A stretch of DNA of 35,456 bases from positions 1 to 35,456 of IMG/VR virus record IMGVR_UViG_3300005747_000052; one strand, 5' to 3'. The notes below the pieces were generated by a model. The model was not told the DNA's origin. It worked only from the letters and a program-made list of their open reading frames with translations, and did not search any database. Source of the stretch: a virus. Shown one piece after another: positions 14,176 through 23,347 of the stretch; within the stretch, counting starts at the first letter, position 1; each line of letters begins with the position of its first letter. Made by a program: the position numbers and the translations under genes.

Positions 14176-14463
14176 TTATCGCCCCTTCTTAAACCTTATA
14201 CGTCTTGTGGATTCGTCCGGCACCTGCTCCCAATCGGCAAACGCCACAGACAGAGGCTCAGTCACGCCGTCATGCTCTAACGGCCAGACCTCAACCACTA
14301 CACCCGCCTTTGTTTTCTTAATGCAAACGCTCATATTCCTGACATCGATCCAGCCCTCTTTGGAATACATGACATACTCGCGGCCTTCATAAAGCATTTC
14401 CCGTGTCTCGCTTTCGCGTCCCTGCGGTGCAGGTAGCGGCTCATTAGAATGGTAATTCGTCAT
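14176..14463 (-). CDS. Hypothetical protein with beta-rich core
   Basis: A 95-residue protein. ATG 14463 is used (a TTG just before it is not needed); AGAGGTG lies about 8 bases upstream. The core GREYVMYSKEGWIDVRNMSV followed by CIKKTKAGVVVEVWPLEHDG looks like a small beta barrel, and the C-terminus is basic (RRIRFKKGR). It overlaps the end of the 202-residue gene by 20 bases. No family recognised. Confidence 0.68.
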   Translation of the reverse strand: MTNYHSNEPLPAPQGRESETREMLYEGREYVMYSKEGWIDVRNMSVCIKKTKAGVVVEVWPLEHDGVTEPLSVAFADWEQVPDESTRRIRFKKGR

Positions 14464-15052
14464 CAAGATGCACCTCTGTCAATGTTTTCTGTTTCGTCAC
14501 GCTCTCGACCACAGCACCATCAAACATCCCCTTGATGGAGTCCAGCGTCTTAGCTTCCTCATTCTCTCGCCACGCACCGATGATGCGTCCAATCTCCGCC
14601 ACAGAGTAAACGATCATTTCGCGGTTATCCTTCTGCACCCGCGACACCTCGACATCTGTCTTGGCAATCGCCAGAACCTTACCATCCGGCATAGGTGCCT
14701 CCCAATGCTCTCCGGTAAGTTCCTTCGCCCCAGCAAGCACTGCCGCCCTCTCCAGAGCCTTAATCCCTCGGATGGTCGTCTGCACCTCCTCTTCCACCGC
14801 TATCGGGTCAACCCTGTCAATCGCCTCGTTCATCCTATCCATCTGCTCGTGAAAGCGATCACGCAGTTCAGCCGACACAAGATAAGGCAATCTATCGACA
14901 CCCCACCGCAGTTCCGCCTCACTCATAACCAGATCATATTGGATCAACCACTCCTGCACTTTCTTGTAAGCCCTATCGGTCGGCGCGAAGTGTTTCTTGA
15001 CCACAATATTATCCGGCTTCCTAACCCTCTTACTTTTCCTCTGGTAAGCCAT
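14444..15052 (-). CDS. Helical protein with an SSB-like C-terminal tip
   Basis: A 202-residue protein with a basic start (MAYQRKSKRVRKPDN) and a long helical middle (LRDRFHEQMDRMNEAIDRVD). It ends EVHLDDELPF. The acidic-hydrophobic DDELPF tip closely resembles the C-terminal peptide of bacterial SSB proteins (DDDIPF, DDEIPF), which recruits host repair and replication proteins. The rest does not look like an OB-fold SSB. It may dock onto SSB-binding host proteins or be a recombination mediator; inference. It lies directly downstream of the TGTGAY site cluster, with an AGGGA site before ATG 15052. Confidence 0.72.
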   Translation of the reverse strand: MAYQRKSKRVRKPDNIVVKKHFAPTDRAYKKVQEWLIQYDLVMSEAELRWGVDRLPYLVSAELRDRFHEQMDRMNEAIDRVDPIAVEEEVQTTIRGIKALERAAVLAGAKELTGEHWEAPMPDGKVLAIAKTDVEVSRVQKDNREMIVYSVAEIGRIIGAWRENEEAKTLDSIKGMFDGAVVESVTKQKTLTEVHLDDELPF

Positions 15053-15080
15053 TTCATTTTCCCTTTCTTACTCGGTGAGA

Positions 15081-15184
15081 TGTGACGATGTGATATGTGA
15101 TGTGACCCTAAAGGGTAGTCACATCACACACACACCCCTCACACCGTGTGATTTCACATGTGATTGGTGTGATTTGCGATCACA
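15081..15184. repeat. Cluster of ten TGTGAY-type half sites (operator or iteron array)
   Basis: Forward TGTGAY copies begin at 15081, 15089, 15096, 15101, 15147, 15159 and 15168; reverse RTCACA copies begin at 15118, 15123 and 15179. They build an 11-base perfect inverted repeat (15096-15106 with 15118-15128, loop containing CCTAAAGG), a palindrome TCACATGTGA (15154-15163) and TGTGAT-N5-ATCACA (15168-15184). The array fills the gap between the primase-helicase stop and the next gene. It could bind a regulator, or be an origin next to the primase-helicase. Confidence 0.7.
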
Positions 15185-15194
15185 TCTCAGCACC

Positions 15195-17057
15195 TTAACC
15201 ATTGATAATCCACACTTTCTTATTTTCTATCGCAATCACACGCTTATCCTGCAACGCACTCCGCGCGTCTCTACGCTTTCCGGCGGTCACATCGGGGCAT
15301 TTATTGCTATGTGCCGTGTGCCAAACGTCCACATTTATGCTTGTCTGACCCGCATCGATGATCGCATTCTGGAGTGCCTCAAGCGCAAATTGCTGATCCG
15401 TTGTTAGCGGTGTCGCGGCCTTATTCTTGCGCTTCTTGTCCTTGACCTCATCGGCACCGACCTCGACCATCACAATGCTCTGATCGTCTATTGTGGCGAC
15501 TGGCACCATCTCGAAGTTCATGTCGGGAACAACCTCTGCATCTTTCTGCTTTTCTACCTTAAGCGTCACGATGCCATCGAAGTTCGTAACAGACATAGCC
15601 GCATCAACGCCGCCAAGCAAGCTAGACGATCCCCTCATGCCCTTCGCACTGTCCTTGCCAGCGTGATGTACTGCGAGCAACGCGGAGCCTGTGTGCGCCT
15701 TTATTTGGTCGCAAGCGGCAACGAACAGCCCCATATCGGTTGCGCTGTTCTCCTCGCCGCCCAGCAACGCCCTTGCCACGGTATCCACGACAACCATCGT
15801 GAACTGCTCGCCGATGCTGTCAATCGTCATCTTGAGCCGCGCAATGTCCGCCTCATCTCGGAAATTCACCGCCGTTGGCAACACATAAAGGTTCGCCGTG
15901 TCGTGCTTGCCGTGCCACGCCTCCCACGCCTTCACGCGCTTGCCCATACCGCCGACACCCTCGCCAGCTATGTACAGCACAGAACCGCGCCTGACCGCCC
16001 TATTTTGCCACGCTAGGCCGTTTGCAATAGAAAGAGCCATATCGATAGCCAAGAACGACTTACCGGACGCTGGTGCGCCGTACATGACCGTAAAACCGTG
16101 CAACGTCACCAGACCATCCACCGCCCACGTAACAGGAGGCATCGCCTTTAGCTGGTTAGTCGTCATAACCTCGAACGGCACGATTTCTGCGCCGTCAGCG
16201 TCAATAACGATTTCCTCTACCAACTCAGGCTCTGGCTGTTTGATGTCTGCCTCAGTGACCGCGCTGGCCTTGGCAACCGCCTCACCCAGTGTTGCGGCAT
16301 CGTTACCCTGCGCCAGCCAGTCCACGACATCACCCTTTGGTGGCAGACCATTGAGGCTCACCACCTTGATCTTTGACGCCCTGCCCCACAGTGTACGCTT
16401 TACCTTATCCGCGTGTGCCTCACCCGCATTATCATTATCGGGCAGTATGACCACATTCCGGCCAACGAAATAATCAGCCAGTTCAGGCTTGAAATTACCT
16501 GCGCCGCCTGAGTTTGTGGTGGCAACGAACCCGATCTTGATAAGTGCGTCAGCCGCCTTCTCACCTTCCACGATGAAGATAGGCGCGTCTGGGTTCTGCA
16601 TTATGCCCATTAAATTATACGGCAGTGGCTCGACATCCTTGACCGAGTTAAGCCAGCCGCCCTTGCCGTCCGGTCTGCGCTGTCTAAATGTCTTCGGCTC
16701 ATACCGCAAGATCTGGTAACCCAGTTCGCCGTCAGCATTATAATATTCGTATATCTTGGAGATGTACTGCTTTGGTACTAGAGATTTTTGAGCCTGTCTC
16801 TGGATGCCGAACTCTTTTTCGAGCGTCTCGGCAACCGAACCAGATATTGTGACCTTGCCGTAGTTCCGCACGATGTCCACCACACCGCCGCCCTCGCACA
16901 ATTCAAAGTCATAGTAGGTTGATTTTTGTAAGTCTAACTCTTTTGAGCCGTGCGTACCCCAGCGCAGTGTACGGCCTTTGACCGACAGCTTGGCATTAGG
17001 CTCGCCCCAGTAGTGCTTGGCGACTCGCTCGGCGTGTGCAGATATATTTGTTGTCAT
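15195..17057 (-). CDS. TOPRIM primase-helicase (RepA/AAA_25-type)
   Basis: A 620-residue fusion. The TOPRIM primase domain has VEGEKAAD (163-170) and LPDNDNAG (205-212), with the catalytic Glu and Asp. The hexameric helicase domain has Walker A GAPASGKS (327-334), Walker B MVVVDTVAR (421-429), and LAVHHAGKDSAKGMRGSS (461-478), typical of RepA/RegA-like ATPases. The N-terminal 65 residues sit where a zinc domain is usual, but only one Cys (54) is present. The C-terminus may be a winged helix. It would unwind DNA and prime synthesis at the fork. With no phage polymerase seen, host polymerase must extend. GAGGG precedes ATG 17057. Confidence 0.92.
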   Translation of the reverse strand: MTTNISAHAERVAKHYWGEPNAKLSVKGRTLRWGTHGSKELDLQKSTYYDFELCEGGGVVDIVRNYGKVTISGSVAETLEKEFGIQRQAQKSLVPKQYISKIYEYYNADGELGYQILRYEPKTFRQRRPDGKGGWLNSVKDVEPLPYNLMGIMQNPDAPIFIVEGEKAADALIKIGFVATTNSGGAGNFKPELADYFVGRNVVILPDNDNAGEAHADKVKRTLWGRASKIKVVSLNGLPPKGDVVDWLAQGNDAATLGEAVAKASAVTEADIKQPEPELVEEIVIDADGAEIVPFEVMTTNQLKAMPPVTWAVDGLVTLHGFTVMYGAPASGKSFLAIDMALSIANGLAWQNRAVRRGSVLYIAGEGVGGMGKRVKAWEAWHGKHDTANLYVLPTAVNFRDEADIARLKMTIDSIGEQFTMVVVDTVARALLGGEENSATDMGLFVAACDQIKAHTGSALLAVHHAGKDSAKGMRGSSSLLGGVDAAMSVTNFDGIVTLKVEKQKDAEVVPDMNFEMVPVATIDDQSIVMVEVGADEVKDKKRKNKAATPLTTDQQFALEALQNAIIDAGQTSINVDVWHTAHSNKCPDVTAGKRRDARSALQDKRVIAIENKKVWIING

Positions 17058-20599: not shown

Positions 20600-20726
20600 T
20601 ATTATCGGTGGGATTATTATCCTGATCTTTTTTCTGGGCTGGTTCGACTGGCTCTGGATATTCGGCATCGAGTCTTCACGCTCTTGGACGTGGTGGTATC
20701 TCATGTCGATCTGGGGGGCGAGTTGA
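20580..20726 (+). CDS. Small Trp-rich membrane protein
   Basis: A 48-residue protein. ATG 20580 is chosen for GGGAG 7 bases ahead. After MTSRVDDI comes a hydrophobic helix (IGGIIILIFFLGWFDWLWIF, about residues 9-28), then a second Trp-rich segment (WTWWYLMSIW). The stop overlaps the start of the homing endonuclease (TGATG). Early phage membrane peptides often serve superinfection exclusion or membrane modification; that is inference. Confidence 0.65.
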   Translation: MTSRVDDIIGGIIILIFFLGWFDWLWIFGIESSRSWTWWYLMSIWGAS

Positions 20727-21976
20727 TGATTGTTTATCTTGCAACTAACTCGGTCAATGGTATGCAGTATGTTGGCTTGACAAGAAGGACAGTGTTAGAA
20801 CGCCGCGTATTTGAGCATCGTTCCGCTTCACGCAGAGGTGCTGGAAAAGAAAACACATTAGCCCACGCTATGCGAACTTATGGCGAAGATGTTTTTTCTT
20901 TTCGTGTTATCCAGAGGGTTCAAAGTTTAGGAGCCTTGTCTGCCGCAGAAAGATATTGGATAAGAAAGCTGAACACCGATTGGCCTAATGGGTACAATGT
21001 TAAAAAAGGCGGTTGTCATACCGACCCATTAACCACCGGAAAAAAATATCGTATTCAAGGAAAAACTTATTATGGGTGCGGTCAGTTAGGTGATGCTTTT
21101 GGCATTGAACCAAAAACCCTTCGGGCTAGGCTAGAGGTGTCGGGCTGGACGTTACGGCAAGCAGTTGGGGTTGATGATCCGCCTGAAAGAGAAGGCTCGC
21201 CTTCTTTATGCAAGCCAATCACATTCCGTGGCGAGCAACATGCCAGTCGTTCTGCTCTGTGTCGAACTTATAACGTGCCACTGTCTAACTTTCTGGAAAG
21301 ACGAAAATCTGGCTGGAGCTTGGAGGAGGCGTTAGGGCTGGTTAAGCGGCCAAAAGTTTATAACAAGCCCCTGATCCCAGTAACGGTTTTTGGGAAAGAG
21401 TATTCTTGTTTAGCTGAAGCATCTAAACGTTTTGGGGAAAACTTAAAACGTGTTTACCAAAGGATGCACAGTTTGGGCTGGAGCATAGAGGACGCCTTGA
21501 CCGGAAAGCGGTCTGAGCCTCACGGTGGTTGGACAATATATACAGTCAATGGCAAGCGGTATGTGGGGCAAAAAGCACTGGCCTCTGCCCACGGTCTTAC
21601 AAAGGCACAACTACAATCACGTTTAAGAAGGGGGCATACCTTTGAGCAAGCCCTTGGCTTAGAAAAAGGTGTTGGTCAAAGGGGTAAAAAATATGTCATA
21701 GACGGCAGAGAGTATTTTGGCATGAAGAACTTAGCCAAAGCCTTTAATTTAACTGAACATAAGATAAACACCCGATTAAAAAGAGGTTACTCATTAAGGC
21801 AAGCCTTAGAGTTGGAAAAAGGAGTTTCTCTGCCCACAGGTAAAAAGCACGTTATTAATGGGAAAGCATATTATGGATATAGAGAATTAGCAGAAGCCTT
21901 TGGTTTAACTGCCGCTACTGTCGCTATTAGGATGAGGCGAAAAGGGCTATCCGCAAAAGAAGCCGTTTGCCTCTAG
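20726..21976 (+). CDS. GIY-YIG homing endonuclease with six DNA-binding repeats
   Basis: A 416-residue protein. The N-terminal nuclease (1-95) has VYLA (3-6) and YVGLT (15-19) as the GIY-YIG pair, then Arg-rich RRTVLERR, Glu 75 in AAERYWIRKLN and Asn 91 in GYNVKKGG. Residues 107-416 are six tandem modules starting near 107, 164, 218, 271, 322 and 374, about 52 residues apart, each of the form NGK-Y-G---LA-AFGL-----RLRRG-SL-EAL. These resemble NUMOD-type DNA-readers. ATG 20726 overlaps the previous stop; a longer frame from 20684 lies on the membrane protein. It is free-standing, with no intron seen. Confidence 0.85.
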   Translation: MIVYLATNSVNGMQYVGLTRRTVLERRVFEHRSASRRGAGKENTLAHAMRTYGEDVFSFRVIQRVQSLGALSAAERYWIRKLNTDWPNGYNVKKGGCHTDPLTTGKKYRIQGKTYYGCGQLGDAFGIEPKTLRARLEVSGWTLRQAVGVDDPPEREGSPSLCKPITFRGEQHASRSALCRTYNVPLSNFLERRKSGWSLEEALGLVKRPKVYNKPLIPVTVFGKEYSCLAEASKRFGENLKRVYQRMHSLGWSIEDALTGKRSEPHGGWTIYTVNGKRYVGQKALASAHGLTKAQLQSRLRRGHTFEQALGLEKGVGQRGKKYVIDGREYFGMKNLAKAFNLTEHKINTRLKRGYSLRQALELEKGVSLPTGKKHVINGKAYYGYRELAEAFGLTAATVAIRMRRKGLSAKEAVCL

Positions 21977-22183: not shown

Positions 22184-23148
22184 TGGTAGGTAAACTTACG
22201 CCGGATACACTTATTTCAGCATCACGCATAGCTGTATTAATGGGCGTCAGCCCATACGAAACACCCAACGAACTGATGCGTTCCATCTTGGACGCGCGTC
22301 AGGGCAAGCCACGTCAGTCGCTGGATCAGAACGAACCTATGTTCTGGGGCGACACGCTGGAGCCAGTCATATTGACCGAGGCCGCCAAGCGTCTGAACCT
22401 GACTGACGTGGTTCTTGATTTTGACGCGGCGATCCATCACCCATCGCTACCGCTTGCCGCCTCGCTGGACGGCAAAGGCACTGGCACCCAGATGGTCGCG
22501 CACGACCCAGCCAATGGCATCTACTGTCCGCAGGGTAAGCCTGTCGATATAAGCGGCGTGGGCGTGCTTGAGGCGAAGAACACCAGCGTTGTAGCCGAAG
22601 ATGCTCCGGCACCGCACAGGGGCGTCCTACAGCTACAGGCACAGATGATGTGCGCTGGATATGAGTGGGGTTGTGTTGCCGTGCTGTATCGCGGCGGTGA
22701 GTTGCGCCTGTTCATGTATCAGGCCGATCTTGTGGTGCAGGGTGAGATTGCCAACGCGATCCGCGAGTTTGAGCGTAACATCGAGATGGGCGACTGGTAT
22801 CCGGCCACCACGTCAGCAGACGCAAACGCCGCTTGGAATAATGTGGACGATGGCGCACCGCCACTTGATCTGGATGACGTGCCGGACGCGGACTACTGGG
22901 CTGGCATCCTGATCGATGCCAAGGCGCAGAAGAAAGCCTTGGATCAGGAGATCGACATTGCCGAGACGAACCTGAAAGAGATGTTGGGCAATCATGAGGA
23001 AGGCGTGGTGACTAATGACGGCTCACGTTATTACATCAAGTGGCCGATGCGTAAAACCCGCGCACAACCAGCCAAGACCGTTGCCGCGAAGCCTGAGTCG
23101 ATTGTCCGGCAGAAAACCCTGACGGTGAAGGAGGTTCCAAATGGCTAA
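22183..23148 (+). CDS. YqaJ-type viral exonuclease (recombinase nuclease)
   Basis: A 321-residue protein. LISASRIAVLMGVSPYETP (10-28) and FWGDTLEPVI (Glu 60) open the fold. LAASLDG (Asp 96), VLEAKNTS (Glu 130, Lys 132) and LQLQAQMM (Gln 150, 152) are the PD-(D/E)XK active site of YqaJ/lambda-exo-like nucleases, which resect double-stranded ends for strand annealing or rolling-circle replication. Residues 235-270 look like a coil. No annealing partner (RecT or Beta type) is apparent, though the proposed ssDNA-binding protein might serve. It overlaps the next gene by 8 bases. Confidence 0.9.
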   Translation: MVGKLTPDTLISASRIAVLMGVSPYETPNELMRSILDARQGKPRQSLDQNEPMFWGDTLEPVILTEAAKRLNLTDVVLDFDAAIHHPSLPLAASLDGKGTGTQMVAHDPANGIYCPQGKPVDISGVGVLEAKNTSVVAEDAPAPHRGVLQLQAQMMCAGYEWGCVAVLYRGGELRLFMYQADLVVQGEIANAIREFERNIEMGDWYPATTSADANAAWNNVDDGAPPLDLDDVPDADYWAGILIDAKAQKKALDQEIDIAETNLKEMLGNHEEGVVTNDGSRYYIKWPMRKTRAQPAKTVAAKPESIVRQKTLTVKEVPNG

Positions 23149-23347
23149 TCTCACAAAGGCGCAGAGCGAGGTGTTGCGCTGGATTGAACGACACCAGCGC
23201 AGATACGGCTTCACGCCGTCAGTGCGCGAGATTGCGGCGGGGATGAACAAGGGCGTCACGACCATTCATTACCACATTCACAATCTGGTTGATCGTGGCG
23301 CAATCAAGAAACCAGCCGGAGTGCATCGGTCTATTGAGATACAGTAA
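23141..23347 (+). CDS. LexA-like DNA-binding domain protein without protease
   Basis: A 68-residue protein matching the N-terminal winged helix of LexA: LTKAQSEVLRWIERH, YGFTPSVREIAAGM, TTIHYHIHNLVDRGAIKKPA, HRSIEI. The Ser-Lys self-cleavage domain is absent, and a terminator follows at once, so it is not a truncated fragment run-on. It may repress phage promoters or occupy host LexA boxes without being inactivated by RecA. Translation is coupled to the exonuclease. Confidence 0.85.
   Translation: MANLTKAQSEVLRWIERHQRRYGFTPSVREIAAGMNKGVTTIHYHIHNLVDRGAIKKPAGVHRSIEIQ

Follow-up and report, generated by a model that had tools for sequence, protein, structure and literature searches.

Repeat arrays beside phage primase-helicase genes co-vary with the C-terminal domain of the encoded protein and are candidate replication origins

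The sequence analysed here in full, hereafter the window, is a virus record of 35,456 bases. It includes a minus-strand gene (positions 15195–17057) for a 620 aa primase-helicase. DNA-primase families match the N-terminal part of this protein (residues approximately 99–273), and a RepA-like helicase domain with the RecA fold (AAA_25, E = 3e-38) occupies residues approximately 300–520. By sequence, the closest solved helicase is RepA of RSF1010 (1g8y, E = 8e-9), and the folds nearest to a model of the full protein are those of phage T7 gp4 (best match, 5ikn) and RSF1010 RepA. A 142 bp intergenic gap (15053–15194), the proposed origin, separates the primase-helicase stop from the next gene, also on the minus strand (14444–15052). 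The 202 aa product of the next gene matches no Pfam family. Its last residues, DDELPF, form an acidic tip resembling that of SSB proteins.

Within the gap, positions 15081–15184 contain an array of ten copies of the word TGTGAY in both orientations (TGTGAY or RTCACA), starting at 15081, 15089, 15096, 15101, 15118, 15123, 15147, 15159, 15168 and 15179. Two extra copies of TCACA, at 15139 and 15154, raise the count of the 5-mer TGTGA/TCACA to 12. We propose that these words are iterons. Three arrangements described in the original prediction were each found in the array, namely an 11 bp perfect inverted repeat, TGTGATGTGAC/GTCACATCACA (15096–15128, with arms at 15096–15106 and 15118–15128), a 10 bp palindrome, TCACATGTGA, made up of two head-to-head words (15154–15163), and TGTGAT-N5-ATCACA (15168–15184). 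The arms of the inverted repeat surround a core, CCCTAAAGGG (15106–15115), a conserved small dyad that includes CTA and is retained in relatives where the word changes.

All ten of the elements originally reported in these 104 bp are present, and their clustering is far beyond chance. Across 200 dinucleotide-shuffled versions of the window, the maximum found was three, and outside the array no stretch of the same length holds more than two. As the window contains 41 TGTGAY words and 39.7 are expected, only their clustering is unusual. The array is also the top-scoring repeat cluster of the 35 kb window, with a score of 75, the next best scoring 18.

Folded as single-stranded DNA, the whole gap has a z-score of -4.6. 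No AT-rich unwinding element was found in the gap, which is 46% GC, and the AT-richest 40 bp nearby (70% AT) is located at the end of the primase-helicase gene. GC skew in the window tracks gene orientation and is no help in locating an origin, and it was dropped as evidence.

Searches of viral contigs with the primase-helicase and the next gene yielded relatives, and nearly all of those with a readable gap carry a dense array in the same position as in the window. Repeated 6-mers exceeded those in essentially all of 200 shuffles in 53 of 54 distinct gaps, and the remaining gap (L024) is low-complexity. At most of the loci scanned, no other repeat cluster is as strong as the array, which lies at the primase-helicase stop. 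The word itself differs between lineages and includes TGTGAT, TGCGAT, TGAGAT, CGGATC, CGTAGC, ACGTAG, CGTATC, GTACGG, GTCCGG, GGTTATA, GGTCGG and GTGGGGTG, among others. The original prediction had expected alignment of relatives to reveal conserved half sites with varying spacers. Instead, the word has been swapped wholesale together with the C-terminal domain of the primase-helicase, and the sole constant part of the array is the dyad core. The core carries CTA on one strand and takes forms such as CCCTATAGGG, CCCTTTAGGG, CCTTAGG and CCCTAGGG; CCTA is present in 21/21 word-distinct arrays and CCCTA in 18/21.

A homologue of the next gene adjoins the array even where the primase-helicase gene lies elsewhere. 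This is the case in L028 and L029 (41% identical), L035 and phage ctyzp037, where an array with the core is found away from the primase-helicase gene and precedes the next-gene homologue. The repA gene of ctyzp037 (L122:2520) has an internal run of GAACGTGCG-like units that encodes a repetitive stretch. In a class of loci with the words CGTATC/GTACGG (L013:7848–8083, L015, L016, L017, L022, L025 and L033), the gap is approximately 230 bp and includes an additional conserved AT-rich block, GAGACGCCTATCGTTATAAAACAGATAG, before the core. This block could be an unwinding element.

The same layout was found behind distant primase-helicases (approximately 24–30% identical) in cultured phages and in phage WO. 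The array word is TGGGAACG in Rhizobium phage RHph_Y3_1, GGGACA in Salicola phage CGphi29, CGGTACA in Idiomarinaceae phage 1N2-2, GTTGGCAA in Wolbachia phage WO and GCGGGACA in Dhillonvirus EK99P-1. No array was found directly after the primase-helicase gene in Mae-JY30, ctyzp037, Hocus, Jerseyvirus Ent2 or AWGoat, and the layout is therefore common, not universal. Primase-helicase relatives with arrays directly after the gene are also present in bacterial genome contigs (Phenylobacterium, Parvibaculum, Balneolales and Chloroflexi; L134:2830, L135:4523, L137:5138 and L138:4553), with the words GCTGCAAC, CGTCACA, GGTTAGA and GGGTACAGTA.

Comparison of the window with L006, L008 and L009 revealed DNA identities of mostly 0.85–0.97 across the primase-helicase gene, 0.52–0.67 over the part encoding the C-terminal domain and the array, and approximately 0.9 in the next gene. 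In close relatives that are 96% identical in the rest of the protein, only the C-terminal domain and the array have been replaced. When 12 proteins or protein parts were compared, the drop in other-word relatives was limited to the C-terminal domain, which shares 74–84% identity with that of the window in same-word relatives and 56–57% in other-word relatives. The RHH, putative small terminase and next-gene proteins are equally similar in both sets of relatives and were rejected as readers of the word; the RHH protein, one of the candidates put forward originally, does not co-vary with it. As the relatives' loci end before the gene for the LexA-like protein (23141–23347), this protein lay outside the comparison. 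A set of 144 locus pairs, many of which reuse the same loci, combines next-gene identity of at least 80% with C-terminal-domain identity below 65%, and among the pairs listed the arrays clearly differ.

The distance between arrays was correlated with that between C-terminal domains, with a partial Mantel r of 0.57 (p = 5e-4) for 72 loci and 0.54 (p = 2e-4) for 47 distinct modules, in tests that correct only partly for phylogeny, shared descent and linkage. Because the C-terminal domain adjoins the array, linkage adds to this correlation. The next gene is equally near the array and scored near zero (0.03 for the 72 loci and 0.10 for the 47 modules), reaching borderline significance (p = 0.05) in the latter test. 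Values for the TOPRIM region were -0.05 and -0.07, respectively, and the helicase domain accounted for a small share (0.21 and 0.12). Exchange and evolution of the C-terminal domain and the array as one specificity module is the best explanation of these sequence comparisons.

The C-terminal domain (15198–15416, minus strand; residues approximately 548–620) is predicted to be a winged helix, and its fold and co-variation are the grounds on which we propose it as the iteron-binding domain. A model of the last approximately 70 residues has the element order H-E-H-H-E-E with a pLDDT of about 79–88, and the same order is seen at the C-terminus of the full primase-helicase model with a pLDDT of about 90. 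The domain model most resembles winged helices in ORC1, Cdc6 and MCM, at weak E-values, and a search with the domain sequence against solved structures gave no relative. Columns in the predicted recognition helix, AGKRRDARSALQD (15246–15284, minus strand; residues 592–604), are more strongly associated with the array word than the other columns of the domain (p = 0.001, corrected only partly for shared descent and linkage), and residue 596, within this helix, is the column with the strongest association. RRD(A/D)R is found mostly with TCACA, RKDAR with TCGCA and R(S/A)DDR with TCTCA. The exceptions are L006 and L018, which pair RRDAR with TGCGAT and each have a proline near the helix start. 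Thus, residue 596 is not the whole code.

From these observations, we think it likely that the array is the iteron part of a phage replication origin that is bound by the primase-helicase's own C-terminal winged helix. As in iteron origins, copies of a short word are clustered beside the gene for the initiator, and the co-variation and co-exchange match the word to the initiator's putative DNA-binding domain. An origin used by the adjacent primase-helicase was among the options raised in the original prediction, and it is the best supported of them. We infer that the winged helix would bind the repeated word in double-stranded DNA, at several copies and in both orientations. Binding would gather RepA-like helicase rings at the gap, and the rings, once loaded, would open the duplex around the constant dyad with its CTA. 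The attached primase domain would then start primers, perhaps at the CTA of the dyad.

A broader proposal, which we put forward tentatively and with some doubt, is that a single polypeptide provides for the entire start of replication, with a winged helix for reading a lineage-specific iteron, a RepA-like helicase that loads itself and a primase whose primers begin at a fixed CTA in the constant dyad once it is melted. The winged-helix/iteron pair would then be an interchangeable address tag, swapped against origin-directed interference or origin competition. If this is true, the swapping of address tags gives a large natural library of matched pairs of DNA reader and word.

The main rival to an origin is an operator role for the same binding, with the C-terminal domain repressing or tuning its own operon or the next gene. 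Any function of the C-terminal domain would be compatible with the co-variation, and arrays located apart from the primase gene still stand ahead of a member of the next-gene family. However, the array is embedded within a block of genes that all run in one direction, a scan for the sigma-70 consensus found no promoter-like site, and an arrangement of a dozen sites, in either orientation, about a constant CTA dyad suits an origin better. We consider it unlikely that the array is an operator and not an origin. Many iteron initiators act both at the origin and as operator binders, and the two roles may coexist here. The strong fold predicted for the gap and the position of the dyad just upstream of the start of the next gene could also point to a structured RNA or an attenuator hairpin ahead of that gene's ribosome site. 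This appears improbable, as many copies of the word lie outside the hairpin and have changed along with the rest, which goes beyond what base pairing by itself explains, and the word tracks a protein domain. Rfam matches were to microRNA families only, all far below their gathering scores, and no U-tract terminator was found at the array.

Neither of two further readings seems at all probable. One is that the array binds a host regulator of the CRP/FNR type, or another phage protein such as the RHH, LexA-like, small terminase or next-gene protein. TGTGA does resemble a CRP half site, as the original prediction pointed out, but TGTGA-N6-TCACA and TTGAT-N4-ATCAA are both absent from the window. 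The word is also replaced between lineages, which would be incompatible with recognition by a conserved host regulator. Most of these candidates are already contradicted. The other is a partition, packaging or telomere-resolution site, to which the inverted repeats and the constant palindromic core would be suited. However, no partition gene or protelomerase was recognised in the window, the word does not follow the terminase, and the dyad is both short and imperfect.

The proposed origin shares features with several known systems. RepA of plasmid RSF1010 (IncQ) is homologous to the window helicase by sequence. The RSF1010 origin includes iterons and priming hairpins, and RepA, RepB' and RepC are three separate proteins, whereas in the window the roles of helicase, primase and iteron reader are proposed to reside in a single polypeptide. 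To our knowledge, T7 gp4, the best fold match, is without an origin-binding winged helix. A precedent is provided by SaPI Rep and SCCmec Cch2, in which the C-terminal domain recognises repeats located immediately after the protein's own gene (PMC7581432). These proteins are self-loading initiator helicases with a short-repeat array directly 3' of the gene (PMC7581432), the position that the array also has in the window, where reading by the C-terminal domain is proposed. They differ in their DUF927 or D5/Primase_Cterm helicases and their separate or archaeo-eukaryotic-type primases, whereas the window protein fuses a bacterial-type primase region to a RecA-fold helicase like RepA and T7 gp4, and its array has a constant CTA dyad. 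As its helicase core is AAA_25/RepA and not of either SaPI type, the window protein falls outside that group, although we propose that it acts in the manner of SaPI Rep.

Swapping of modules has been described for RepA_N and its origin in the Vibrio cholerae PLE, with pressure from an origin-cutting nuclease as the proposed driver (PMC8263062). There too, changes in the DNA-binding domain go with changes in the origin, and the two are exchanged together in an otherwise conserved protein. PLE RepA differs in that it is no primase-helicase, binds through an N-terminal domain and has iterons of approximately 30 bp (PMC8263062). The orf904 product of the Sulfolobus plasmid pRN1 is a primase-helicase with a winged helix and a stem-loop origin directly 3' of its gene; the origin sequence diverges while the dyad structure stays, and priming occurs at a defined trinucleotide (PMC4234260). 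It differs in its archaeo-eukaryotic primase and SF3 helicase, and no short iteron array has been described for it (PMC4234260). The open-access papers searched contained no description of the layout for primase-helicases like T7 gp4 and RepA, which does not prove that none exists.

In many phages, a primase-helicase is encoded without any recognised initiator or origin. Our findings provide a simple guide to the possible location of such origins, and to the domain that reads them, in phages of several host groups, and as cultured phages share the layout, the guide is directly testable. The matched domain/word pairs form a natural data set on how winged helices change DNA specificity, and they point to origin identity being under turnover in phages.

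Elsewhere in the window, the protein encoded at positions 20684–21976 resembles GIY-YIG endonucleases and repeats a short motif several times beyond its catalytic domain; it may be a homing endonuclease.
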